DNA of 64,000 bases from Rhodothalassiaceae bacterium (lineage in GTDB: Bacteria > Pseudomonadota > Alphaproteobacteria > Sphingomonadales > Rhodothalassiaceae): the NCBI GenBank assembly GCA_026004935.1, contig BPKC01000001.1, positions 1,775,491-1,839,490 on the forward strand, given 5' to 3'. Positions 6,428 to 43,560 of this stretch are shown piece by piece. A program made the position numbers and the translations under genes. A model generated the notes under the pieces. It did no database searches, had not been told where the DNA came from, and worked only from the letters and a program-made list of their open reading frames with translations. Positions within the stretch are counted from its first letter, which is position 1, and every line of letters starts with the position of its first letter.

Positions 6428-7229
6428 TGGCGGACCGTCTGGCCGAAATCTGCGCCCGCAAGCGCGAGGAGGTGGCCGCCGGCCGGCGGCGGATTCCGCT
6501 GGCGACGCTGGAGGCCGAAGCACGGGCGGCCGGGCCATGCCGCGGGTTCCGCGCGGCGCTCGCGCGGCGGATCGCGGCGGGAGAGGCGGCCGTCATCGCC
6601 GAGTTCAAGCGCCGCAGCCCGTCGGCCGGCGCCATCAGGCCGGGTGCCGAGCCGGCCGCCATCGCCCGGGCCTACGAGGCGGCGGGCGCGGCCGCGCTCT
6701 CGGTGCTGACGGATGCGCCCTTCTTCGGCGGCGCGCCCGGGGATCTGAAGGCGGCGCGCGCGGCGACGGGCCTGCCCGTGCTGCGCAAGGACTTTCTCGT
6801 CGATCCCTGGCAGATCCCGGAATCCCGGGCGATGGGGGCTGACGCCGTGCTCGTCATCATGGCGGCGGTGGACGACGGGCTGGCATGCGAGCTGATCGCG
6901 GCGGCGCGCGATCACGGCATGGACGTGCTGGTGGAGGTGCACGACGAGGCCGAGCTCACGCGCGCCTGGCGCTCGACGCCCAGGTCGATCTCATCGGCAT
7001 CAACAACCGGGACCTTAAGCGCATGGTCGTGGACATCGGGACGGGCATCCGCCTTGCCGCCCGGCTTCCCGAAGGGATCCTGGGCGTCGCCGAGTCGGGG
7101 CTGAAGACGCGCGAGGATCTGCTGCGCTGCCGGGCCGCGGGACTCCACGCCTTCCTGATCGGCGAGACGCTGATGCGCGCACCCGATCCCGGCCGGGCGC
7201 TCGCCATGCTTGTGGGAGAGGACGGATGA
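6424..7229 (+). pseudogene. trpC: indole-3-glycerol phosphate synthase, single frame break
   Basis: The first frame (from ATG 6424, coupled to trpD by ATGA) encodes an N-terminus with the IAEFKRRSPSAG, VLTDAPFFGG and LRKDFLVDPWQI motifs of TrpC. At about 6961-6966 the frame is lost. The continuation, LALDAQVDLIGINNRDLKR, then ILGVAESGL and a GETLMRA-type end, lies one base out of phase to the stop at 7229. Adding one base inside the local GCGCGCC run restores a 268-residue TrpC barrel with no other damage. The enzyme closes the pyrrole ring in tryptophan synthesis. A sequencing indel seems more likely than true loss because all flanking catalytic motifs are preserved. Confidence 0.88.
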
Positions 7230-7756
7230 GCGCGGGCGGGCGTGCGGATTTCACCCATCTCGACGAGACGGGTGCGGCGCGGATGGTGGATGTCACGGAA
7301 AAGCCCGCAACCGCGCGCGAGGCGGTGGCGGAAGGCCTTCTCGAGATGACGGCGGCCATGCGCGAGCTCTTCCGCAGCCGGGCGCTCGCCAAGGGGGATG
7401 CGCTGGCGGTGGCCCGCGTCGCCGGGATCATGGCGGCCAAGGAGACGGCGCGGCTGATCCCGCTTGCGCACCCCATTCCGACCGAGGCGGTGGCGATCGA
7501 CTTCGCCTTCGTGGACGCCGGAATCCGGATCACCGCGCGGGTGCGCACGCGGGCGCCGACCGGGGTCGAGATGGAGGCGCTCGCGGCCGTCTCGGTGGCT
7601 GCGCTCGCGCTCTACGACATGGGCAAGGCGGTGGAGCGGGGCATGCGGATCACGGGCATCCGGCTGCTCGAAAAGCGGGGCGGTCGCAGCGGCCACTGGC
7701 GCGCCGAAGACGCCCGCCTGTCGGCGGACGAGGAGAACGAGCGCGATGGCCGGTGA
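7226..7756 (+). CDS. moaC: cyclic pyranopterin monophosphate synthase
   Basis: MoaC converts the MoaA product to cyclic pyranopterin monophosphate in molybdenum cofactor synthesis. The 176-residue product has the typical FTHLDETGAARMVDVTEK N-terminus, a PLAHPIP segment with the conserved His, and the GKAVERGM-type catalytic region. The C-terminus carries about 20 extra charged residues beyond the usual end near LLEKRGGRSG. It is joined to trpC by an ATGA overlap and to moeA by an 11-bp overlap, so tryptophan and Moco genes are probably co-transcribed, a known alphaproteobacterial arrangement. Confidence 0.95.
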   Translation: MSAGGRADFTHLDETGAARMVDVTEKPATAREAVAEGLLEMTAAMRELFRSRALAKGDALAVARVAGIMAAKETARLIPLAHPIPTEAVAIDFAFVDAGIRITARVRTRAPTGVEMEALAAVSVAALALYDMGKAVERGMRITGIRLLEKRGGRSGHWRAEDARLSADEENERDGR

Positions 7757-8973
7757 TCTCATCGGCGAGGAAGAGGCGCGCCGGCGCCTGCTCGCGCGAT
7801 CTCGAACCGATCCGCGAAACCGAAGACCTGCCCGCTGGAGGAGGCGGCCGGCCGGGTGCTGGCCGCGATCTCGCCGCCCGGCTCACCCAGCCGCCGGCGG
7901 ATCTGTCCGCCATGGACGGCTACGCCCTGCGCGCCGCCGACGCCCGCCCGGGCGCGCGGCTGAAGGTGATCGGGGAGTCGGCGGCCGGCCATCCGTTTGC
8001 CGGGCGCGTGGGCCCGGGCGAGGCGGTGCGCATCTTCACGGGCGCCGCGGTGCCGGCGGGCGCGGACGCCATCCTCGTGCAGGAGGAGGCGCGGCGCGAG
8101 GGCGATGTCGTGATCGTCGGGGGCGACGTCACGGCCGGCCGGCACATCCGCCGCGCGGGCGGGGATTTTCGTGAAGGCGAGGTGGTGCTCGCCGCCGGCA
8201 CGCAGCTTTGCGTGCGCCATCTGGCGCTTGCGGCCGCGGCCGACCATGCGGAGCTGCCCGTCGTGCGCCGGCCGCGGGTGAAGATCTTCGCCACCGGGGA
8301 CGAGCTGAGGCCGGCGGGGGGCGCGGCGCAACCGGGCGGCATCGTCGACAGCAACGGGCCGGCGCTCGCGGTGATGCTGCGCGCGGCGGGCGCCGAGATC
8401 GTCGAGCGCGCGATCCTGCGGGACGAGGAGCGGGCGATCCGGCGCCTTGCGGCGGCCGCCCGTGACGCCGATCTCGTGGTGACCATCGGCGGCGTGTCCG
8501 TCGGCGACCGCGATCTGGTGCGGCGGCTGCTGCCCGACCATGGTTTCGAGACGGCCTTCTGGCGGATCGCGATCAAGCCGGGCAAGCCGCTGCTCTTCGG
8601 CCGCGTCGGCACGACGCCGCTGATCGGTCTGCCCGGCAATCCGGTTTCGGCGCTGATCACGGCGCGGCTGTTCGTGGTGCCGGCGCTGCTGCGGCTGCAG
8701 GGCGTGCCGCCGGCCGCCGCCGAGCCGGTTTTCACCCTTGCCGTCCTCGCCGCGGACATGCCGGCGAACGGCCCGCGCCAGGCCTATGTGCGCGCGGCGC
8801 TCGGCTGCGAGGACGGGCGGGCGCTCGCGCGGCCCCTCGCCGTCCAGGACAGCGCGCATCTGTCCTCGCTTGCGGCCGCCGGGGCGCTCATCCGCCGCCC
8901 GCCCCACGCGCCGGCCGCCGCGGCCGGGCAGCCCGTGCCCGTGCTCCCGCTCGTCGCCGCCGAGACGCTTTAG
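7746..8973 (+). pseudogene. moeA: molybdopterin molybdotransferase, three frame breaks near the N-terminus
   Basis: MoeA inserts molybdate into adenylylated molybdopterin. From about 7867 to the stop the frame is intact and carries the family motifs LSAMDGYALRAAD, IFTGAAVPAGADAI, TGDEL, DSNGPAL, GGVSVGDRD, KPGKPLLFG and GLPGNPVS. The first 40 codons switch frame three times: near 7791-7799 (after MAGDLIGEEEARRRLLA), near 7831-7836 (before LEEAAGRVLA) and near 7861-7868. The three stretches join to a normal MoeA N-terminus, so the gene is complete apart from small indels. The ATG at 7746 lies inside moaC. lexA, often next in related genomes, is absent; a repeat array follows. Confidence 0.85.
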
Positions 8974-8991
8974 GGGCGCGGGCCGGTTCGG

Positions 8992-9020
8992 TCGTCGGTC
9001 ATCAGTCATCGGCGATCGGA
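8992..9020. repeat. heptanucleotide tandem repeat tract
   Basis: About four copies of a 7-bp unit of the type NNATCRG (units such as TCATCAG and TCATCGG). It lies directly after moeA and before the hairpin array. The same repeat recurs at five other places in the window. Confidence 0.7.
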
Positions 9021-9027
9021 ACGGGAA

Positions 9028-9345
9028 GCGTCACCCGCCGGCTTGACCGGCGGGTTCAGTCCCCCCTCGTCATCCGCCGACTTGATCGGCGGATCCAGCG
9101 GGAAGCGAACCACCTGCAGACGGCGGGGATGCCGTCGCCACCAGCCGGGTTCGCCGGTCAAGCCGCCACACGACGCGACGGGAAAGGCGCCACCCGCCGC
9201 TGTGCCCCCTCACTCGTCACCCGCCGGCTTGACCGGCGGGTCCAGCGGCAACCGGGGACAGCCTCAAGCGCCGGGATCGTCCTCGGCGGCGGCTGGATTC
9301 GCCGCTTTCGCAGCGAATGACGAGAAAGGAAGCGTCACCCGCCGC
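9028..9345. repeat. hairpin repeat array 1
   Basis: Fills most of the 388-bp gene-free gap between the convergent ends of moeA and the OmpA-like gene. It contains at least four palindromic modules, including CCGCCGGCTTGACCGGCGG, CCGCCGACTTGATCGGCGG, a GGTTCGCCGGTCAAGC-type copy with a degenerate arm, and TTCGCCGCTTTCGCAGCGAA. Modules are flanked by CGTCA on one side and TCCAGC on the other, in both orientations. No protein-coding signal is visible here. Confidence 0.9.
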
Positions 9346-9361
9346 TGCGCACTCCCGACCG

Positions 9362-10750
9362 TCACTCTCCGATCAGGATCTCGACGCGCCGGTTCTGCGG
9401 CTCGCGCACGCCGTCATCCGTCGGCACCAGCGGGTCCTTTTCGCCGCGGCCGACGGTCACCATGGCCTCGGCCGGCACGCCGCGCGCCGCGAGCGCCTTC
9501 TTCACCGCTTCCGCCCGGCGCAGAGACAGCCGGTCGTTGTACCAGTCCGGACCGGCGCGGTCCGCGTGCCCGACGAGCTGGATGCGCGTGAAGCCGTACT
9601 TCCTGTAGTCGGCCGCCGCGCGGTCGAGGATCGCCTCGGCCTCCGGCTTGATGGCGGCCGAATCGAAGTCGAAGAAGACGAGATAGGGCCCGACCTCGGG
9701 AGCCGTCACCTCGACGGTGACGGTGGCCGTGGCCTCGCCGCCATGGCCGTCGCCGACGCGGTAGGTGAAGCTGTCCGTGCCGCGGAAGGAGGCATCCGGC
9801 GTGTAGAACAGCGCCCCGCCGGCCCGCCGCAGCGTGCCGTGGGCGGGCGTGCCGAGATCGACGAAGGTGAGGGCGCTGCCCTCCGGATCCCGGTCGTTCG
9901 CCAGCGGATCAAGACGGGTTTCCTGGCCCGCCACGGCCGTAAAGCGGTCGTCCTGCGCGATCGGCGCCTGATTGACCGGTGCGGGCGCCGGCGCCGGGGC
10001 GGGGGCCGGTGCGGCTGCGGCCGCGGGTTTCGGTGCGGGCTTCGCGCCGCCGAAGCGCCAGGTCAGCCCGAAGAGCAGGCCGTGGTCCTTGGCCTTGCGG
10101 CGCAGGAAGCGGTCCTCGCCGAGCGTGAGCTGCGCCTTGTCGGTGACGAGATAGCGGTAGCCGACCTCGGCCGACAGCTGCGGGGTGATCTTCACGGCAA
10201 GCCCGGCGAGCACCTGGGCGCCGAGAACCACATCGTCGCCGCCGATCAGGCGATTGCCGCTGCCGGCGAGAATGGCGTCCGAATCGATGTCGACGAAGCC
10301 GCCGCCCGCACCGAAGAAGGGCCGGATGCCGCCGGACCGGTTGAGCTCGACGATCGCGTTCGCCATCACGCTGGTCGCGTTCACATGCCCGCGCGAGAGG
10401 ACGTTCGGCCCGTTCGCGGTCACCAGCCCCAGCTCGCCGGCCAGCCCGCCGTCGTTCGTGACGGTCACGATCTGAAGATCGTTGTTGCGGTGCAGATACT
10501 CGATCTCGAAACGCAGGGGATTGAGATCATAGCCGATCGCGCCGCCGACCGCCCAGCCGTTGTGGGTGTCGTCGCGCGCCAGAAAATCGTTGCGCTGGCC
10601 GACGAGCCGCCGGCCCTCGTTCCAGTTGAAGCCGCCGCGGGCCGAAACATAGAACCCGCCTTCCTCCCGGTCCTGCGCCCATGCGGTCTGCCCGCCGACC
10701 AGCAGCGCCAGCGCCGCCGCACCCGTCAGAAGAATGCATCTCGTCGCCAT
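9362..10750 (-). CDS. OmpA-family outer membrane protein with an inserted cadherin/VCBS-like domain
   Basis: A 462-residue protein starting MATRCILLTG with a Sec signal peptide cut after about AWAQ. Residues ~25-235 look like an eight-strand barrel with alternating aromatic and polar residues and several GGxxGY turns. An Ala/Pro hinge follows, then an Ig-like/cadherin-type repeat (~265-350: APIAQDDRFT, DPLANDRDPEG, GTDSFTYRVGDGHGG). The C-terminal ~110 residues form an OmpA peptidoglycan-binding domain (FFDFDSAAIKPEA, LVGHADRAG, LSLRRAEAV, NRRVEI). The inserted Ig-like module is unusual for OmpA porins. It probably tethers outer membrane to cell wall. The ATG at 10750 has AAGGGA upstream. Confidence 0.88.
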   Translation of the reverse strand: MATRCILLTGAAALALLVGGQTAWAQDREEGGFYVSARGGFNWNEGRRLVGQRNDFLARDDTHNGWAVGGAIGYDLNPLRFEIEYLHRNNDLQIVTVTNDGGLAGELGLVTANGPNVLSRGHVNATSVMANAIVELNRSGGIRPFFGAGGGFVDIDSDAILAGSGNRLIGGDDVVLGAQVLAGLAVKITPQLSAEVGYRYLVTDKAQLTLGEDRFLRRKAKDHGLLFGLTWRFGGAKPAPKPAAAAAPAPAPAPAPAPVNQAPIAQDDRFTAVAGQETRLDPLANDRDPEGSALTFVDLGTPAHGTLRRAGGALFYTPDASFRGTDSFTYRVGDGHGGEATATVTVEVTAPEVGPYLVFFDFDSAAIKPEAEAILDRAAADYRKYGFTRIQLVGHADRAGPDWYNDRLSLRRAEAVKKALAARGVPAEAMVTVGRGEKDPLVPTDDGVREPQNRRVEILIGE

Positions 10751-34792: not shown

Positions 34793-34954
34793 GGAAAGAT
34801 GATCTTGCCCATTGTTTAGTGCAATTTAACCTCGCGCATGTCAGCCTCGCTCACCATGACGCGGGCTTGACGGGCCGACTGGTCGCCGGACGGGAGACGG
34901 AAGACGCCGGAGACCGCAACGAGGACGGATCGCACGAGGGGGGCGCTCCCCGTG

Positions 34955-36757
34955 ATGCGCGCGGAGCACGTGCTGCTTGCGCTTTCACCCTTCGTCGTGC
35001 TGGGGCTGGACCGGCTCGCGCTCACCTTCCAGGGTCCGCTCGGGGCGAGCCCCTGGTATCCCTCGCTGGGGTTCGCGCTGGCGCTCGGCGCGCATGCCGG
35101 CTGGCGTGCGCTCGGACCCGTTCTGGTCGGATTCCTGCTGGCGGCGGTTTTCGTCTGGACGACGCCGGTGGGCCCGACGGCGCTTTACGGCGCGGCCGTC
35201 AAAAGTCTCGTCGGCATCGGCGCGGGCGTCTGGCTGGGGCGGGATCCCGCGGTCCGCGGGCCGTGGTGGCCGCCGGCGACCGTCCTGCGCTTTCTCGGGA
35301 TCGCGGTGGCGATGGCCCTCACCACGACCGCCCTCGGCAACCTGCCGTATCTCGCCACCGCCGCGCCCGACCCGCTGTGGCGCCGGCTCGGCGGCTGGGC
35401 GGCGGGCGATTTCGTCGGCGTCTTCGTCTTCGGCCCCGTTTTCGTCCTGCTCGTCAGCCATCTGACGAACCGGGGGCGACTGGCGCCCGCGCCCGCGCGG
35501 GTCGCCGAATTCCTCGGCTATCTCGTGATCGTCGGGGGCTTCGTGTGGGCCGTGCTGCTGACGCCCTGGGGCTGGCACTACAATCTGCTGTTCCTGTCCT
35601 TCGTCATCATCGTGATCGCGGCGACGCGCATGGGATTCGCCGCGACCGTCTGGCTCGCGGCGCTGATCGATGCGGCCGTCCTGCTCACGGTGGGGCTGAC
35701 CCGCGCCGAGACGGTGATGCTCGCCGATCCGGTGCGGCTCTACATCCTCCAGCTCTTCATCGCGACACTGGCGGGCGTCGCCCATCTTCTGGGCTCGACG
35801 ATCGAGGGCTATCGCCGGCTCAGCCGCGAGCTGGAGGCGCACCGTCAGCACCTCGAGGAGCTCATCGCCGAGCGCACGCGCCAGCTTGCGGGCGAGGTGG
35901 AGGAGCGGCGACGGGCGGAGGAGGCGCTTGCCGAAGCCAATGCGCTGCTCGAGGCCAGGCTGGATGAGCGCGAGCGGGCGCTGCTGGCGGCGATGCGCGA
36001 GGCCGAGCAGGCGAGCCGGGCCAAGACCCGCTTCCTGCAGAACCTCTCGCATGAGCTCAGAACCCCGCTCAACGCCATCGTCGGCTTCGGCACCATGATG
36101 CTTTCGGGCATGCGCGGCCCCCTGCGGCCGGCGGTCTACCGGGACTATGTGCAGCACATGGTCGATGCCGGCGAACATCTGAAGCAGCTCGTCGAACGCC
36201 TGCTCAACGTCGAGCAGGCCGACGACGTCAGCAACTTTGCGACCGGACCCGTCGATGCCGTCGCCATCGCGCGGCAGAGCATCGACCTGATGACGCCCGC
36301 GGCTCGCGCGCGCGGCGCTGAACTCATGTTGAAGGCCGGGCGCGGGCTGCCTCCCGTGCTCGGCGAGCCGGCGCGGCTGAAGCAGGTGCTGCTCAATCTC
36401 ATCGACAATGCGATCAAATACGGGCCGCAGGGTCAGACGGTGACCGTATCTCTCGCCCGCGAGGATGCCGCGGGAGCCGATAAGGCCCCGGACGGCGCGC
36501 AACATCGGGTCGTGATCATGGTGGATGACGAGGGCCCGGGCGTGCCGTCCGCCATGCGCGAGCGGATCTTCGAGCGTTTCGGCCGCCTCAATGATCCCGA
36601 GGTCGCGGACGGCCCACCGGGCCTCGGCATCGGGCTGTATGTCGTGCGCCGCATCGTCGAGGCCATGGGCGGCACGATCCATGTCACCGATGCGCCGGGC
36701 GGCGGCGCGCGCTTCGTCGTCCGGCTGAAGATTGCAAGCGCCCCGGAAAAGCCGTAA
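34955..36757 (+). CDS. membrane sensor histidine kinase (MASE1-like input)
   Basis: A 600-residue hybrid-less sensor kinase. The first ~270 residues hold about eight membrane helices, MASE1-like in pattern. A coiled coil (~285-355, rich in Glu/Arg/Leu) leads to the HisKA box SHELRTPLNAI with the phospho-His near residue 366. The HATPase domain has the N-box NLIDNAIKYGP, the G1 box VDDEGPGVP and GLGIGLYVV. No response regulator is adjacent; the nearest is at 61440-62132. A GTG three bases upstream of the ATG is an alternative start. The signal is unknown. Confidence 0.88.
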   Translation: MRAEHVLLALSPFVVLGLDRLALTFQGPLGASPWYPSLGFALALGAHAGWRALGPVLVGFLLAAVFVWTTPVGPTALYGAAVKSLVGIGAGVWLGRDPAVRGPWWPPATVLRFLGIAVAMALTTTALGNLPYLATAAPDPLWRRLGGWAAGDFVGVFVFGPVFVLLVSHLTNRGRLAPAPARVAEFLGYLVIVGGFVWAVLLTPWGWHYNLLFLSFVIIVIAATRMGFAATVWLAALIDAAVLLTVGLTRAETVMLADPVRLYILQLFIATLAGVAHLLGSTIEGYRRLSRELEAHRQHLEELIAERTRQLAGEVEERRRAEEALAEANALLEARLDERERALLAAMREAEQASRAKTRFLQNLSHELRTPLNAIVGFGTMMLSGMRGPLRPAVYRDYVQHMVDAGEHLKQLVERLLNVEQADDVSNFATGPVDAVAIARQSIDLMTPAARARGAELMLKAGRGLPPVLGEPARLKQVLLNLIDNAIKYGPQGQTVTVSLAREDAAGADKAPDGAQHRVVIMVDDEGPGVPSAMRERIFERFGRLNDPEVADGPPGLGIGLYVVRRIVEAMGGTIHVTDAPGGGARFVVRLKIASAPEKP

Positions 36758-36844: not shown

Positions 36845-38074
36845 GTGGCGGATTCGCGGGTGGTCGTCGCGGTCTTTTTCGGCGGGCGCAGCGTCGAGCA
36901 TGACGTGAGCGTGCTGACCGGCCTGCAGTTTCTGGCCGCGCTCGACCAGTCGCGTTACCGCGGCATCCCCGTCTACATTGACCCGGACGGACGCTTCTGG
37001 ACCGGCGCGCGCCTGCTGCGCCGCAGCGCCTATCCGCTCTCCGGCGAGCCGGCCGATGATCTGCGCCCGGTGACGCTCGCCGCCGGCCTGAAGACCGGGG
37101 GGAGGCCCGTGCTGCATGCGACGCGCCGGCGCCTTTGGCGCGAGGAGGTGGAGACGATCCCCTTCGACGTCGCCGTGCCCGCGCTCCACGGCAGCTTCGG
37201 CGAGGACGGCGCGATCCAGGGCCTGTTCGAGTTCGCCGACATCCCCTACGCCGGGCCGCGGCTGTTCGGGGCGGCGGCGAGCATGGACAAGCATGTGACC
37301 AAGGAAATCCTGCGCGCCGCGGGCCTGCCCGTGCTGCCCCATGCGCTGATCGCCCGGCCCGAGGATCACCACTTCGTCGAGGCGCCGCAGGTGCTGCCCG
37401 CGGTCGAGGAGGCGCTCGGGGCGGAGCCCTTTCCCGTGATCGTCAAGCCGCGCCGGCTCGGCTCGTCGGTGGGGGTGGCGCGCGCCGACGACGCGGAAGA
37501 GCTGGTCGCCGCGGTGAACGCGGTCTTTCGCCTCGACACCTTCGCCCTCGTCGAACCCCTCGTGCCCCATCTCGTGGAATACAATGTCGCGGTCCGGCGC
37601 GAGGGCGCGGCGCATGTCACCAGCGCGATCGAGCGGCCGCTCAAAGCCGGCGAGAACGAGGTGCTGAGCTTCTCGGAGAAGTATCTTGCCGGCACCGGCG
37701 GCCGGCCGAAGCTCGATGACGCGCCGCTCGAGGGCCTGGCCGAGCTCACCCGCGAGATCAACCCGACCAGCCTGTCCGCCGCCCAGGAGGAGAACATCCG
37801 CGACTGGGCGAAGCGGGCCTTCCGCGCCTTCGATCTGGCGGGCACCGCGCGCATCGATTTTCTGTGCAACGGCGAGACGGGCGAGATCTGGCTCAACGAG
37901 GTCAACAGCATCCCGGGCTCCTTCGCCTATTATCTCTGGCAGGTGGCGCCGGTGCCGATCTCCTTCACGGCGCTGACCCATCTGTTGATCGAGGAGGCCT
38001 TCGCGCTGCACAGGCGCGAGCGGCGGCTGACCGATGCCGCAGCCGGCGGCGCGCAGATCTTCGCCCGCGGGTAG
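36845..38074 (+). CDS. D-alanine--D-alanine ligase-like ATP-grasp enzyme
   Basis: A 409-residue ATP-grasp ligase. It has the Ddl N-terminal FFGGRSVEHDVSVLTG, the HGSFGEDGAIQGLFE loop, the ATP-site KPRRLGSSVGVARA and the C-terminal IDFLCNG and NEVNSIPGSFAYYLW metal/substrate region. It is longer than typical DdlB (~310), with an extra insertion around residues 60-100. GTG at 36845 follows GGGAG; GTG 36827 is an alternative. It is 5 bp from an alpha/beta hydrolase and coupled to a membrane MurF-like protein, away from any dcw cell-wall cluster, so its dipeptide may serve a special purpose. Confidence 0.85.
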   Translation: MADSRVVVAVFFGGRSVEHDVSVLTGLQFLAALDQSRYRGIPVYIDPDGRFWTGARLLRRSAYPLSGEPADDLRPVTLAAGLKTGGRPVLHATRRRLWREEVETIPFDVAVPALHGSFGEDGAIQGLFEFADIPYAGPRLFGAAASMDKHVTKEILRAAGLPVLPHALIARPEDHHFVEAPQVLPAVEEALGAEPFPVIVKPRRLGSSVGVARADDAEELVAAVNAVFRLDTFALVEPLVPHLVEYNVAVRREGAAHVTSAIERPLKAGENEVLSFSEKYLAGTGGRPKLDDAPLEGLAELTREINPTSLSAAQEENIRDWAKRAFRAFDLAGTARIDFLCNGETGEIWLNEVNSIPGSFAYYLWQVAPVPISFTALTHLLIEEAFALHRRERRLTDAAAGGAQIFARG

Positions 38075-38079
38075 CCGGC

Positions 38080-38916
38080 ATGGCGGACGCCCCGCAGGCG
38101 CACGCTCCCTGGCACGCCCGCGCGCTCGGCGGGCAGGGCGGCGGCGACATCCAGTTCCTGCTGCTCCACGGCTGGGGCCGGACGGGCGAGAGCCTGGTGC
38201 CGCTCGCGCGCCAGCTCGCCGCGCACGGACACTGCTGGCTGCCGGACCTGCCGGGTTTCGGCCGCACGCCGATGCTGGCGGAGGGCGCCGGCAGCGCCGA
38301 GTATGCCGCGGCCCTGCTGGCCCAGCCCGTGCACGCCCAGGCGCGCGCGGCCGGGCGGCGCATCGTCGTGATCGGGCATTCCTTCGGCGCGCGGGTGGCC
38401 TTGCGGGCCGCGGTGCGCGATCCGGCCTTCGCGGATGCCCTCGTGCTGATCGCAGGTGCGGGGCTTCGGCGCCGGCGCAGCCTGCCGTTCCGCCTGCGCG
38501 CGGCGATGCTCAAGGCCGTCGGCCGGCTGCTGAAGCGCTGCGACCGCGTCCTCGGCACGGGGCTGTTCGCCCGCTACGCCGCGCGCGTCGGCAGCCGGGA
38601 CTACCGCGAGGCGGGCCGGCTGCGCGCGACGCTGGTGAGCGTCGTCAACGAGGATCTGTCTGCGGTCGCCGCCGCGGTCCGTCGGCCGACGCTGCTCGTC
38701 TACGGCGCCGCGGATCGGGAGACGCCGCCGGAATTCGGCCGGCGCTATGCGGCGCTGATGCCGGATGCCGAACTCGTGATCCTTGACGGCTTCGGCCATC
38801 TCGACATCCTTGGCCCGGGCGCCTTCCAGTGCGCGCACCGCATCCTGGACTTTCTCGCGCGCAAGGGTCTGGTGGGCCCGGCCGAGGGCGCCGGGCAGGG
38901 GGAGGGGGCCGGATGA
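38080..38916 (+). CDS. alpha/beta-fold hydrolase
   Basis: A 278-residue serine hydrolase. An LLLHGWG oxyanion-hole motif near residue 30, the nucleophile elbow GHSFGARVA, an Asp in YGAADRETPPEF and a His in FGHLDIL give a complete triad. No signal peptide. It begins five bases after the ligase stop and its stop overlaps the membrane MurF gene (ATGA). The tight coupling suggests an esterase, peptidase or proofreading role on a product of the neighbouring ligases. The substrate is unknown. Confidence 0.8.
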   Translation: MADAPQAHAPWHARALGGQGGGDIQFLLLHGWGRTGESLVPLARQLAAHGHCWLPDLPGFGRTPMLAEGAGSAEYAAALLAQPVHAQARAAGRRIVVIGHSFGARVALRAAVRDPAFADALVLIAGAGLRRRRSLPFRLRAAMLKAVGRLLKRCDRVLGTGLFARYAARVGSRDYREAGRLRATLVSVVNEDLSAVAAAVRRPTLLVYGAADRETPPEFGRRYAALMPDAELVILDGFGHLDILGPGAFQCAHRILDFLARKGLVGPAEGAGQGEGAG

Positions 38917-40568
38917 ACGGGCTCATTCCCGCCTTTCTGCTTCCGGTCGGGCTGCTGCTCTGCGGCTTTGCCGGCGCGCGGCTCGCCGCGCTGCTGCTGT
39001 TCTTCCAGCAGGAGGAATACGACGGCCCCCGCTTCGCCCGCTGGCTCTCTGAGGCGGGCGCGCGCGACCGCCGGACCTCGCTTGCGGCCGCGATCGGGGC
39101 CGTCGTCGGATTCTCCCCGGCCGACTGGGCGCAGGCGGCGGGCCTTACCCTCGTCGCGCTCGGGCTGATCGAGGGGATCCGCCGCAGCCTGACCGTGCTC
39201 GCCCGCGCAAAGAAACCGCTGAGGCTCACGGCGCGCGCATGGCGGATTCTCGCGCTCGCCTTTGCGCTCGCGGTGCTCGTCCTCGTCCTCCTGTTCCTCG
39301 CGGCGGCGCGGTTCGCGGGGATCGACCACCCGGCGGTCGCGACGGGGATCGGCGCGCTGCTCGTGGCGCAGGGCGCGCCGTTCCTCCTCATCGCCGCGAA
39401 CGCGCTGCTGGCGCCCGTGGAGCGCCGGATCCGGCGCCGCTACCGCGCCGAGGCCGAGGCGCGGCTGAAGGAGATCGACCCCTGCGTCATCGGCATCACC
39501 GGCTCCTTCGGCAAGACCTCGACCAAGCACATTCTCGGGCATCTGCTGGAAAGCCTCGGGCCGACGCTGATCACGCCGGGCAGCGTCAACACCGAGATGG
39601 GGATCGTGCGCATCATCCGCGAGAAGCTGGAGCCGCGGCACCGCCATTTCGTCGTCGAGATGGGCGCCTATGGTCCCGGCTCCATCGCGCGGCTGTGCGC
39701 GCTCACCCCGCCGCGGATCGGGGTGCTGACCGCCGTCGGCGAGGCGCATTACGAGCGATTCACGAGTCTCGAGACCGTCGCCCGCGCGAAGATGGAGCTG
39801 GCCGAGGCGGTCTGGCGGCAGGGCGGCCCGCTTGTCGCCGTCCTCGACGGCATCGCGGAGCCCGCGCTCAAGAGCCGGCTGGCCGCGCGCGCCGTGCCGG
39901 GGCGGGTGATCCTCGTCGGCAGCGGCGAGGAGGCCGACTGGCGGGTGCGGGAGATCGCCGAGGACGCGGACGGCATCACGTTGCGCTTCTGCCCGCCGGG
40001 CGGCGGCGAGACGGTCTGGCGCGCGCCGCTCCACGGCCTGCATCAGGGCTGGAACCTGATCGCCGCGGCGGCGGCCGCGCATGAGCTCGGCATGCCGCTT
40101 GCCGCGATCGCTGGAGCCCTCGGCAGCCTCACGCCGGTCGCCCATCGTCTCGCCGTCACCCGCAGCGCGGCCGGGGTGACGGTGATCGACGATGCCTACA
40201 ACAGCAATCCCAGGGGATTCCGCGCGGCGCTCGCGCTTCTCGACGAGCTGGGCCGGCGCGCCGGCGGCCGGCGCATCCTGCTCACGCCGGGCATGGTCGA
40301 GCTCGGCGCGCGCCACGATGAGGCCCACCGAGCGCTCGGCGAGGAGGCGGCGGGGCGCGTCGACATCGCGCTGCTCGTGCGCCCGGAGCGCTTCCCCAGC
40401 TTCGAGGAGGGCCTGCGGGCCGCAGCCGGCGCACGCGCGCCGGAGATCCTGCACTTCGCCCGTCAGGCGGACGCCGAGGCCTGGCTGAAGGCGCACGGGC
40501 GTCCCGGCGACGTGGTGCTGGTGGAGAACAATCTGCCCGACCTCTACGAGGCGCCGCCGCGCTTCTAG
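38913..40568 (+). CDS. membrane-fused MurF-like Mur ligase
   Basis: A 551-residue protein. The first ~165 residues have about four hydrophobic segments (around 8-30, 70-90, 112-135, 145-165). A Mur-ligase catalytic part follows: P-loop GITGSFGKTSTK (~197-205), NTEMGIVRIIRE, EMGAYGPGSIARL, and DDAYNSNPRGF near residue 425, which is the MurF-type substrate signature. Canonical MurF is soluble and has no such helices. MurF normally adds D-Ala-D-Ala to UDP-MurNAc-tripeptide, matching the ligase two genes upstream. The membrane fusion recalls PgsB-like polymer ligases. Acceptor unknown. Confidence 0.85.
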   Translation: MNGLIPAFLLPVGLLLCGFAGARLAALLLFFQQEEYDGPRFARWLSEAGARDRRTSLAAAIGAVVGFSPADWAQAAGLTLVALGLIEGIRRSLTVLARAKKPLRLTARAWRILALAFALAVLVLVLLFLAAARFAGIDHPAVATGIGALLVAQGAPFLLIAANALLAPVERRIRRRYRAEAEARLKEIDPCVIGITGSFGKTSTKHILGHLLESLGPTLITPGSVNTEMGIVRIIREKLEPRHRHFVVEMGAYGPGSIARLCALTPPRIGVLTAVGEAHYERFTSLETVARAKMELAEAVWRQGGPLVAVLDGIAEPALKSRLAARAVPGRVILVGSGEEADWRVREIAEDADGITLRFCPPGGGETVWRAPLHGLHQGWNLIAAAAAAHELGMPLAAIAGALGSLTPVAHRLAVTRSAAGVTVIDDAYNSNPRGFRAALALLDELGRRAGGRRILLTPGMVELGARHDEAHRALGEEAAGRVDIALLVRPERFPSFEEGLRAAAGARAPEILHFARQADAEAWLKAHGRPGDVVLVENNLPDLYEAPPRF

Positions 40569-40631: not shown

Positions 40632-41410
40632 CGCCATCCGCCGACTCGATCGGCGGGTCGCGCGTCCTTCTTGCGCCATCCGCCGGCGCGACCGGCGGCT
40701 CGACCGGCGGTGCGAGCCCCTTTCTTCGTCATCCGCCGGCTCGACCGGCGGCTTGACCGGCGGTGCGAGCCCCTTTCTTCGTCATCCGCCGGCTTGACCG
40801 GCGGATCCAGCGGAAAGCGGGGTAACATCGACCGTCGGGCGTTTTCACTCCTCGCGGCTGGATTCGCCGCTTTCGCGGCGAATGACGAAAGAAGAAAGCG
40901 TCATCCGCCGGCTCGACCGGCGGATCCAGCGGGAAGCGGGGGGTAACATCGACCGTCGGGCGTTTTCACTCCTCGCGGCTGGATTCGCCGCTTTCGCGGC
41001 GAATGACGAAAGGAGAAAGCGTCATCCGCCGGCTTGACCGGCGGGTCCAGCGGGCGGTGGAACAATCAACGGCGTCGGAGCTGCACGCACCGTCCGCTGG
41101 GTTCGCCGGTCAAGCCGGCGAACGACGTGTCCGGGAGACCGTCACGCGCCGGTGCCCGCTCCCAAGCGTCATCCGCCGGCTCGACCGGCGGATCCAGCGG
41201 AAAGCGGGGTAACATCGACCGTCGGGCGTTCTCACTCCTCGCGGCTGGATTCGCCGCTTTCGCGGCGAATGACGAAAGGAGAAAGCGTCATCCGCCGGCT
41301 TGACCGGTGGATCCAGCGCACGGCGGAGCCGATCACCGGCGCGGGCGACAGCGTCCCCGCCCGATGGGTTCGCCGCATCTGCCGGCGAACGACGCGTTTC
41401 GAAGGGCGTC
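40632..41410. repeat. hairpin repeat array 4
   Basis: Lies between the convergent ends of the MurF-like and mini-TonB genes. It contains about ten modules. A unit with CCGCCGGCTCGACCGGCGG, the spacer containing GGTAACATCGACCGTCGGG, and TTCGCCGCTTTCGCGGCGAA occurs three times with almost identical spacer sequence. No gene seen. Confidence 0.92.
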
Positions 41411-41488
41411 ACCTGCTGCTGCCCCCTCCCGATCGCCATCCGCCGGTGCGCTTTCTCCTCTGTCATCTCGCGCGATCGCGGCCGCGCC

Positions 41489-41869
41489 TTAGCGCAGCGA
41501 CCAGACGATCGGCACCACCAGCGTCAGATCGCCGTCGCTCGCGCCCGCGGGCGGGGCGGGCAGGGGATCGATGCGCGCGATCAGCCGCTCGAGCTCGCGG
41601 TCCAGCACCTCCTCGCCGGTGGGCTGGATGATCTCGTAGGAGGCGATCCTGCCGGAGCGGTCCACGACGATCTTGACCTTCGCCGTGCCCTCGATCTCGC
41701 GCGCGAGCGCCGAGCGAGGATAGGTCTGCTTCGTGGCGATGGTGGCGGCGACGGCCTTCAGCCAGGCGCTCTTGTCGGCGGCCCGGGCGGGAAGAGCCGT
41801 GGAGGCCAGCATCAGCCCGGCGAGCGCCGCGGCCGCGAAGATCCCCGTGCGCAAGCGTGCCTTCGTCAT
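41489..41869 (-). CDS. secreted TonB C-terminal domain protein
   Basis: A 126-residue protein with a signal peptide (MTKARLRTG..., cleavage near ARAAD). It consists only of a TonB/TolA C-terminal-like domain: YPRSALAREIEGTAKVKI, VDRSGRIASYEI, then LPAPPAGA. It lacks the membrane anchor and Pro-rich linker of true TonB. It could be a periplasmic partner or decoy for outer-membrane receptors. The start at 41869 follows AGGGAGACGACGAG. No receptor or ExbBD gene is near. Confidence 0.72.
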   Translation of the reverse strand: MTKARLRTGIFAAAALAGLMLASTALPARAADKSAWLKAVAATIATKQTYPRSALAREIEGTAKVKIVVDRSGRIASYEIIQPTGEEVLDRELERLIARIDPLPAPPAGASDGDLTLVVPIVWSLR

Positions 41870-42047
41870 CTCGTCGTCTCCCTGAACCTGGGGCGGGGCG
41901 GGCAGGCGCCCGTCCTCCGCGCGTGCCATCAGGACATGCCGCCCGCGGCTTCGCCGGCGCGAAGCGGCGGTGTGCATGTGCCCGCCATGACCAGAAGCGT
42001 TCCGACCCGAATCGCCGGTCCTGGCGCGGCCTTCCTTCCCGCGCGGG

Positions 42048-42079
42048 GGTTAACGACCGGTTGCGGCACATGGTTAACG
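42048..42079. promoter_or_regulatory. two GGTTAACG boxes, one a CtrA-type half-site
   Basis: GGTTAACG occurs at 42048-42055 and 42072-42079, 24 bp apart. Read on the minus strand the second gives TTAACCAT, the consensus half-site of the alphaproteobacterial cell-cycle regulator CtrA. They lie about 180-210 bp upstream of the mini-TonB start. The remainder of the 500-bp gap to tRNA-Thr shows no gene. Confidence 0.35.
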
Positions 42080-42368
42080 CCCGCCCCGCGCATCGCTCCT
42101 CCCGGAACCGGGAAGGGATCGGCGAAAGCCCGGCCTTCATCGCGGGCGGCGCCGTCCGCGGTGACAAACGGCCGACGCGCCGGCGGAGACGTTCGCTACG
42201 ACTCCGTGCTACCGCAAACCCGGCCGCCTGCGGGTGTTTCGTCGGGGCGCAGAGGGCGTTCCCCCGGGTCGGGATCCTGCGCGGGCGGGAAGGGCGCGGC
42301 GCAAGCGGATGGAACCGTGACGGCGGGATGCGGCATGCGGGTCGAACGGCCGCAATGATCTTCGAAAC

Positions 42369-42443
<75 letters not shown>

Positions 42444-42595
42444 TCCCGTGCCCGGGCGGCCCCGGGACTCTGGCGGGGCGGGCGGCGTCGCGCCCGCCGG
42501 GCGGTGGCGTGCAGCCGGCGGCTCTTTGCCACAGGCCGCCGCCACTGGCAAGCCCGTCCAGGGCATGACGAGCCGGTCCGGCGCCCCTTCTTCCG

Positions 42596-43560
42596 CGTCA
42601 CCCGCCGGCTTGACCGGCGGGTCCAATCCCCTCCCTCGTCACCCGCCGGCTTGACCGGCGGGTCCAGCGGGAAGCGGGGTCGATTCCCGGCGCCGGAGCC
42701 CTCACGCCAAGCGGCTGGATTCGCCGCTTTCGCGGCGAATGACGAAAGAGGAGAGCGTCACCCGCCGGCACCTTCTCTCTGCGTCACCCGCCGGCTTGAC
42801 CGGCGGGTCCAGGGGGAAGCGGGGCCGATTCCCGGCGCCGGAGCCCTCACGCCAAGCGGCTGGATTCGCCGCTTTCGCGGCGAATGACGAAAGAGGAGAG
42901 CGTCACCCGCCGGCACCCTCTCTCTGCGTCACCCGCCGGCTTGACCGGCGGGTCCAGCGGGCGGCGAAGCCGACCACAGACCTCGGAGCTGCGTTCCCCG
43001 CCGGCTGGGTTCGCCGGTCCAGCCGGCGAACGACGCGATGGGGGAAGGGCACCTGCCGTTGCGCACTCCCGGTCACCACGCCCGATGGGCGCGTCCATCG
43101 TCGCCCGCCGGCGGCGTTTCCGTCTCACCCGCCGGCACCCTCTCTCTGCGTCACCCGCCGGCTTGACCGGCGGGTCCAGCGGAAAGAGAAGCAATCCCGA
43201 GCGCCGGGATCGTCGCGCATGGCGGCTGGATTCGCCGCTTTCGCGGCGAATGACGAGGAGAAAGGGCGTCACCCGCCGGCTTGACCGGCGGGTCCAGCGG
43301 GAAGCGGGGCCGATTCCCGGCGCCGGAGCCCTCACGCCAAGCGGCTGGATTCGCCGCTTTCGCGGCGAATGACGAGAAAAAGAGAGCGTCACCGCCCGGC
43401 ATCATCTCTTTCTCACCCGCCGGCACAATATCCCCTCGTCACCCGCCGGCTTGACCGGCGGGTCCAGCGGGAAGCGGGGTCGATTCCAGGCGCCGGAGCC
43501 GTCACGCACGGCGGCTGGGTTCGCCGGTCAAGCCGGCGAACGACGCGAATGGGGGAGGGC
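42596..43560. repeat. hairpin repeat array 5
   Basis: Upstream of tRNA-Thr. It has about fifteen modules. The unit CCGCCGGCTTGACCGGCGG, then spacer with GATTCCCGGCGCCGGAGCC, then TTCGCCGCTTTCGCGGCGAA recurs at least three times (starting near 42640, 42786 and 43270) with near-identical spacers. Isolated TTCGCCGG-type stems are interspersed. The long open frames through it only reflect repeat composition. Confidence 0.92.

Follow-up and report, generated by a model that had tools for sequence, protein, structure and literature searches.

A conserved operon encoding Ddl, a serine hydrolase and a membrane-embedded MurF-type ligase

We analysed a 64,000-nucleotide window (C1:1775491-1839490) of the genome of a Rhodothalassiaceae bacterium (G000; 2.91 Mb, 100% complete, two contigs), in which three consecutive genes encode a D-alanine--D-alanine ligase (Ddl), an alpha/beta serine hydrolase and a membrane-embedded MurF-type ligase, hereafter TM-MurF. 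Positions are those of the window, and lengths are in amino acids (aa) or residues:

36845..38074, + strand: Ddl, long form, 409 aa (PF01820, 98 bits; PF07478, 110 bits)
38080..38916, + strand: alpha/beta serine hydrolase, partner of TM-MurF (Abhydrolase_6, 72.6 bits)
38913..40568, + strand: TM-MurF, membrane-embedded MurF-type ligase, 551 aa (TIGR01143, structural model and structural matches)
38913..39407, + strand: predicted five-helix membrane domain of TM-MurF, residues 1-165 (model helices and family hydropathy; no Pfam match before residue 195)
38994..39068, + strand: predicted cytosolic loop 1, residues 28-52, FQQEEYDxxRFxxWxxxxxxxD (68-sequence alignment A4)
39204..39248, + strand: predicted cytosolic loop 2, residues 98-112, AKKPLxxTxRAxRI (alignment A4)
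39498..39521, + strand: Mur ligase P-loop TGSFGKTS with K201 (G197, S198, G200 and K201 invariant in A4; aligned with the MurFs of E. coli and P. aeruginosa)
40188..40211, + strand: MurF signature DDAYNSNP, residues 426-433 (D427, N430 and N432 invariant in A4; aligned with DDSYNAN of MurF)

The Ddl gene begins at GTG 36845, a start with which the alignments of relatives agree, and its TAG stop (38072-38074) is separated by 5 bp from the hydrolase ATG at 38080, while the ATGA at 38913-38916 overlaps the hydrolase stop with the TM-MurF start, so that the originally predicted gene spacing was borne out by the window sequence. A genome-collection scan for TM-MurF loci gave 401 relatives, of which the best 80 were kept, and showed the conservation of the triplet to be genuine. 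The complete operon was retained in Iodidimonadaceae (Iodidimonas), Rhodothalassium, Kordiimonadaceae (Kordiimonas) and related metagenome-assembled genomes (MAGs), and in many relatives (Micavibrio-type genomes) the hydrolase/TM-MurF pair was found within the dcw cell-wall gene cluster, between murB and a divergent ddl. The proposal that the genes lie outside any cell-wall cluster thus holds for this genome, whose dcw cluster is at 1.17 Mb, but not for these relatives. The hydrolase gene preceded that of TM-MurF in essentially all of the 80 loci for which upstream DNA was available, and the two overlapped in 51 of the 75 loci measured. Clustering of the neighbouring genes yielded TM-MurF (80 loci), the hydrolase (77), Ddl (70) and dcw genes as the only clearly shared families, the remaining clusters resembling antisense frames or local synteny. 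When a sample of this one phylum was searched with the A4 alignment, TM-MurF was detected in Alphaproteobacteria only, and PADLOC returned no match linking the triplet to a defence system. In many genomes, ddl and the hydrolase/TM-MurF pair also diverge from a short common intergenic region.

TM-MurF combines a MurF catalytic core with a membrane domain

The Pfam domains Mur_ligase_M and Mur_ligase_C were assigned to residues 195-389 and 411-537 of TM-MurF, and the best NCBIfam family was TIGR01143 murF (E = 5.6e-63, 213-214 bits, model positions 29-403), against which other TM-MurFs scored 188-234 bits. The closest solved fold was likewise MurF (3zl8, Z 37.3, root mean square deviation (rmsd) 4.2 over 367 residues), followed by the MurF 4qf5 (Z 35.6, rmsd 2.8, 355 residues); Mur-core matches filled the VIA/Foldseek lists, and the TM-MurF profile scored 142-163 bits on MurF chains and 45 bits on MurT. 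Both the P-loop and the DDAYNSNP signature recognised in the original prediction are present, and K201, E249, H279, K293, R412 and D427/N430/N432, all invariant in A4, align with the MurFs of E. coli and P. aeruginosa. The AlphaFold2 model built with 68 homologues (mean predicted local distance difference test score (pLDDT) 94.3, predicted template modelling score 0.91) places five long N-terminal helices (residues 4-33, 53-65, 71-98, 107-134 and 140-165) ahead of the two Mur domains; membrane helices before the ATPase core had been foreseen correctly, although their predicted number is five and not about four. Family hydropathy agrees with the model in showing two polar loops between hydrophobic stretches, and these loops would face the cytosol along with the catalytic domains. 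Both are strongly conserved among the 68 sequences, with Q32, Q33, Y36 and D52 invariant and R40 and W44 above 90% in loop 1, and with K101, T106 and R108 invariant, K100 at 99% and R111 at 94% in loop 2. TM-MurF has a MurF catalytic core, with a membrane domain standing in for the UDP-binding N-domain.

The genome encodes no other MurF and no other ligase with a Ddl N-domain

Mur_ligase_M matched five proteins in the genome, namely MurC, MurD and MurE of the dcw cluster, FolC, and TM-MurF, and no second MurF was found either with this domain or with the murF model when all candidates were scored. The dcw cluster reads rsmH-ftsI-murE-mraY-murD-ftsW-murG-murC-murB-ftsQ-ftsA, with MurC, MurD, MurE, MraY, MurG, MurB, FtsI and FtsW intact; murE (7082-8596 in locus L014) overlaps mraY (8593-9672), which leaves no room in the usual murF slot, and the murB-ftsQ interval holds no ddl. 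TM-MurF is thus the only candidate for D-Ala-D-Ala addition in a walled genome. In the same way, the window Ddl was the sole match to PF01820, the Ddl N-domain, in a Pfam search of the genome, so that neither of the separate canonical genes that the original prediction had left room for was recovered.

Both Dala_Dala_lig_N and Dala_Dala_lig_C were found in this Ddl. The equivalents of the Glu (VEHDVS), Ser (LGSSVG) and omega-loop Tyr (EKYLAG) that are catalytic in E. coli DdlB are invariant alignment columns, and E18, S207, S208 and Y280 are invariant across 22 homologues. Its scores fall below the cut-offs of the NCBI Ddl subfamilies (238 vs 262 bits and 224 vs 245.65 bits). Two tandem ATP-grasp proteins encoded at 2.73 Mb were considered as further Ddls and rejected, as they have no Ddl N-domain and reach only 156 and 100 bits where the cut-off is 243. 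Their genes (L015 7758-8816 and 8960-10348) carry the Ddl C-domain only, the second being fused to a GNAT acetyltransferase, and sit downstream of a gene that, judged by eye, resembles a lysine-2,3-aminomutase-type radical SAM gene; the locus possibly encodes a small peptide pathway.

Canonical MurF has been lost repeatedly in TM-MurF lineages

The class sample comprised 388 alphaproteobacterial genomes with a completeness of 97% or more, and the profile A1 detected TM-MurF in 13 of them, each at E < 1e-150. Ten of these had no canonical MurF, G207 had a degenerate one (a divergent copy of 225 bits in which the motifs SYNNHWG and DESYNASP are gone), and a full-length MurF above the cut-off was present only in G136 and G310. 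A MurF match was found in about 366 of the 375 genomes without TM-MurF, the negatives being six genomes of family f50, with zero match to the murF model, plus G295, G300 and G315. Presence of TM-MurF was associated with absence of canonical MurF (Fisher P ~5e-15, leaving out the f50 genomes and treating G207 as MurF-positive); since the genomes are related by descent, such P values are indicative, and the count of changes on a tree is the better measure. Scoring in the class searches was limited to each genome's best candidates, so the murF search was repeated with every candidate scored in 25 chosen genomes, and the pattern was unchanged. Family f96 comprised four TM-MurF-only and three canonical-only genomes, and the switch also occurred within genus g162. 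In an order sample of 60 genomes, nine had TM-MurF without a canonical match (among them G018, which is fragmented) and 18 had both, which indicates, together with other such relatives, that the two can be maintained together. Among the genomes behind named loci, 17 of 24 had TM-MurF only, including three Labrys, Azospirillum halopraeferens, Kordiimonas marina, K. aquimaris and Pseudokordiimonas caeni.

Direct reading of the dcw clusters showed murF to be cleanly gone from its slot in this genome and in G031, G048, G051, G042, G099, G138, G208 and G085, as well as in Labrys, A. halopraeferens, Filomicrobium, a Rhizobium MAG, a Hyphomonadaceae MAG and UBA6503; several Kordiimonas are among the cases of clean loss. 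In G355, G218 and L163 murF is reduced to C-terminal remnants of 155-164 aa, and in five genomes (G039, G063, G060, G270 and G313) the slot holds open reading frames (ORFs) of 349-482 aa without the P-loop, GNxNN and D-x-YN motifs. A relative of the same genus, G001, has a canonical MurF C-terminus directly 5' of mraY, so the loss in G000 is recent; TM-MurF was not seen in the G001 assembly, which is 89% complete. A maximum-likelihood tree of 51 TM-MurFs and three canonical outgroups required seven changes of the label "no canonical MurF", at least four of them forced by supported branches. Canonical MurF has thus been lost repeatedly, and from this genomic distribution we are confident that TM-MurF would be its replacement. 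As the sole MurF of its genome, with this replacement pattern and a MurF core, TM-MurF is very probably the D-Ala-D-Ala-adding enzyme.

Slot ORFs without catalytic motifs are still in frame (L129 3320-4768, L130 3323-4771, L131 8500-9549, L132 5041-6348 and L133 10455-11741), and those of G039 and G063, which are of full length and almost identical, look as though they had been retained for a non-catalytic role. The canonical MurF of G310 (L145 14246-15733) has early motif changes, e.g. NFTNHWG and EPVQMEF, and is possibly partway towards loss.

The hydrolase occurs strictly together with TM-MurF

When a profile of 54 hydrolase sequences was run on the 388 genomes, its strong matches coincided exactly with the 13 that have TM-MurF, and the remaining 375 gave none; such a coincidence has a probability of 1 in C(388,13), or ~2e-24, when kinship is ignored. 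In G392 and G207 the two genes are on different contigs, yet both are present, so the link exceeds mere proximity. The hydrolase is an obligate partner of TM-MurF. Its model (pLDDT 93.5) has a BioH/esterase-like fold with a candidate triad S101-D212-H240, in which S101 and D212 are invariant and H240 is conserved in at least 90% of 54 homologues; the fold search returned generic esterases, with no pointer to the substrate. As a low-confidence guess, it might serve in editing, as an esterase or amidase that removes misligated dipeptides or stem peptides.

Proposed function and rival explanations

Taken as a whole, the data are best explained by TM-MurF being the peptidoglycan D-Ala-D-Ala-adding enzyme that took over from soluble MurF, with an acceptor that is most likely lipid-linked (probability roughly 0.62). 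In this scheme, Ddl would join two D-Ala, and MraY, perhaps with MurG too, would act first, on UDP-MurNAc-tripeptide (MurNAc, N-acetylmuramic acid). TM-MurF would then use ATP to ligate D-Ala-D-Ala, its inferred donor, to the meso-diaminopimelate carboxylate of the stem tripeptide, so that the last two residues would be added at the membrane, on lipid I- or lipid II-tripeptide, with the hydrolase as an obligate accessory enzyme. Because TM-MurF has, in place of a UDP-binding N-domain, a membrane domain whose polar cytosolic loops are conserved, lipid I/II-tripeptide is the most likely acceptor. The N-domain of MurC-F recognises UDP, whereas MurT is without it and acts on lipid II (PMC6113224); the authors of that study considered the domain unnecessary there and likely to clash with the membrane, because the pyrophosphate lies at the boundary of the N- and middle domains (PMC6113224). 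The membrane domain of TM-MurF stands exactly in the place of that N-domain. B. subtilis MraY showed only 17% less activity on a nucleotide without D-Ala-D-Ala (PMC4987650), and this tolerance together with the MurT precedent favours addition to lipid I/II-tripeptide. By this analogy, a lipid-linked acceptor downstream of MraY is probable. We give slightly better than even odds to the complete route, by which, in scattered Alphaproteobacteria, MraY would transfer phospho-MurNAc-tripeptide and TM-MurF with its obligate hydrolase would finish the pentapeptide on lipid I/II, no UDP-MurNAc-pentapeptide being formed.

Three observations weigh against this scheme: TM-MurF scores under the NCBI murF cut-off (213 vs 288.6 bits), the scheme does not explain the hydrolase, and both MurFs are kept in many Kordiimonadaceae and Iodidimonadaceae, for which a different or further role of TM-MurF is possible. 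As both Ddl and TM-MurF fall below curated NCBI cut-offs, both are off the canonical type. All of the evidence for functional replacement would fit equally well if TM-MurF acted as MurF on soluble UDP-MurNAc-tripeptide, its membrane domain serving only to place it by MraY for direct handover of Park's nucleotide, and membrane proximity alone could help, given that in Bordetella a scaffolding function for the cytoplasmic Mur enzymes has been ascribed to MurG (PMC6420597). We nevertheless consider a soluble acceptor unlikely, since the UDP-binding domain (PMC6113224) is gone and is not supplied in trans, the old gene being absent or reduced to its C-terminus in most TM-MurF-only genomes, and since the invariant polar residues in both cytosolic loops suggest more than anchoring.

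In the original prediction the three genes would make a peptide, attach it to a lipid-linked acceptor and trim it, as an envelope modification separate from peptidoglycan, and the coexistence of the two MurFs in many relatives would allow a second role there. This pathway was rejected as very improbable, because this and many other genomes have no second MurF, the hydrolase/TM-MurF pair lies within dcw in many lineages, and the window Ddl is the only ligase here with a Ddl N-domain; the prediction itself had named the absence of another ddl or murF, which would make these the essential peptidoglycan enzymes, as its refutation. Its lipid-linked acceptor remains plausible, as part of normal peptidoglycan precursor synthesis and not of a separate pathway. 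It is extremely improbable that canonical MurF only seems to be missing because of assembly gaps or search sensitivity. Such causes presumably account for G295, G300 and G315, which appear MurF-less without TM-MurF, but the present genome is complete in two contigs with murE and mraY overlapping, many dcw clusters are contiguous across the slot (including that of Labrys sp. KNU-23, on a complete chromosome), and the 25-genome repeat scored all candidates.

MurF is an essential soluble enzyme and a drug target; it makes Park's nucleotide, by common view the universal nucleotide precursor for peptidoglycan. If TM-MurF has indeed taken over its function, a repeated natural swap to a membrane enzyme without a UDP-binding domain would constitute a second route to the pentapeptide, would change the order of precursor assembly and would predict cells without Park's nucleotide; it would also tie a serine hydrolase strictly to cell-wall synthesis and explain why murF seems missing in genera such as Labrys and Kordiimonas. 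No relevant description of a membrane or alternative MurF was found in the open-access papers searched.

Neighbouring features

A histidine kinase gene (34952-36757) lies directly upstream of the triplet, and three close relatives, Iodidimonas muriae and Alpha proteobacterium Q-1 among them, have a counterpart with 31-33% identity at the same position, which makes a regulatory link possible. A GC-rich palindromic repeat (CCGCCGGCTYGACCGGCGG and variants) occurs in 56 copies in the window, compared with 0.44 expected, clustered at 40638-43539 (starting directly after TM-MurF) and at ~9.0, 22.0-26.9, 55.5-56.1 and 63.5-63.9 kb.

Comparison with known systems

Cyanophycin synthetase has a Mur ligase core fold in common with TM-MurF, but cyanophycin enzymes were rejected as its relatives because the sequence similarity is marginal (E = 1.5e-4, vs 5.6e-63 for MurF), which makes the earlier comparison with cyanophycin and poly-glutamate enzymes weak. 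The window Ddl shares its Pfam domains and catalytic residues with DdlA-type enzymes and differs in its length of ~400 aa, in scores under the NCBI subfamily cut-offs and in a gene that lies in an operon or divergent pair with those of the hydrolase and TM-MurF. The hydrolase has the fold and a candidate Ser-Asp-His triad in common with BioH and related esterases and belongs to the alpha/beta-hydrolases in general; in contrast to BioH, it reaches only 72.9 bits against a cut-off of 206.95 and is strictly tied to TM-MurF.

MurT, of the lipid II-amidating GatD/MurT complex, resembles TM-MurF in having no UDP-binding N-domain and in working with a partner. MurT, however, pairs with a glutamine amidotransferase and amidates D-Glu, and is not known to have a membrane domain, whereas the neighbour of TM-MurF is an alpha/beta hydrolase and not GatD, and TM-MurF scores 15 bits with the MurT model against a cut-off of 800. 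Canonical MurF (TIGR01143; 1gg4, 4cvk/4cvm, 4qf5 and 3zl8) is the best match in both sequence and structure, sharing with TM-MurF the Mur_ligase_M and C domains, the P-loop, the Mg/carbamate-lysine region and the DD-x-YNxN signature. Unlike canonical MurF, TM-MurF has five membrane helices instead of a UDP-binding N-domain, shows ~25-32% identity in the structural matches, has an obligate hydrolase partner and is encoded outside the murE-mraY slot.

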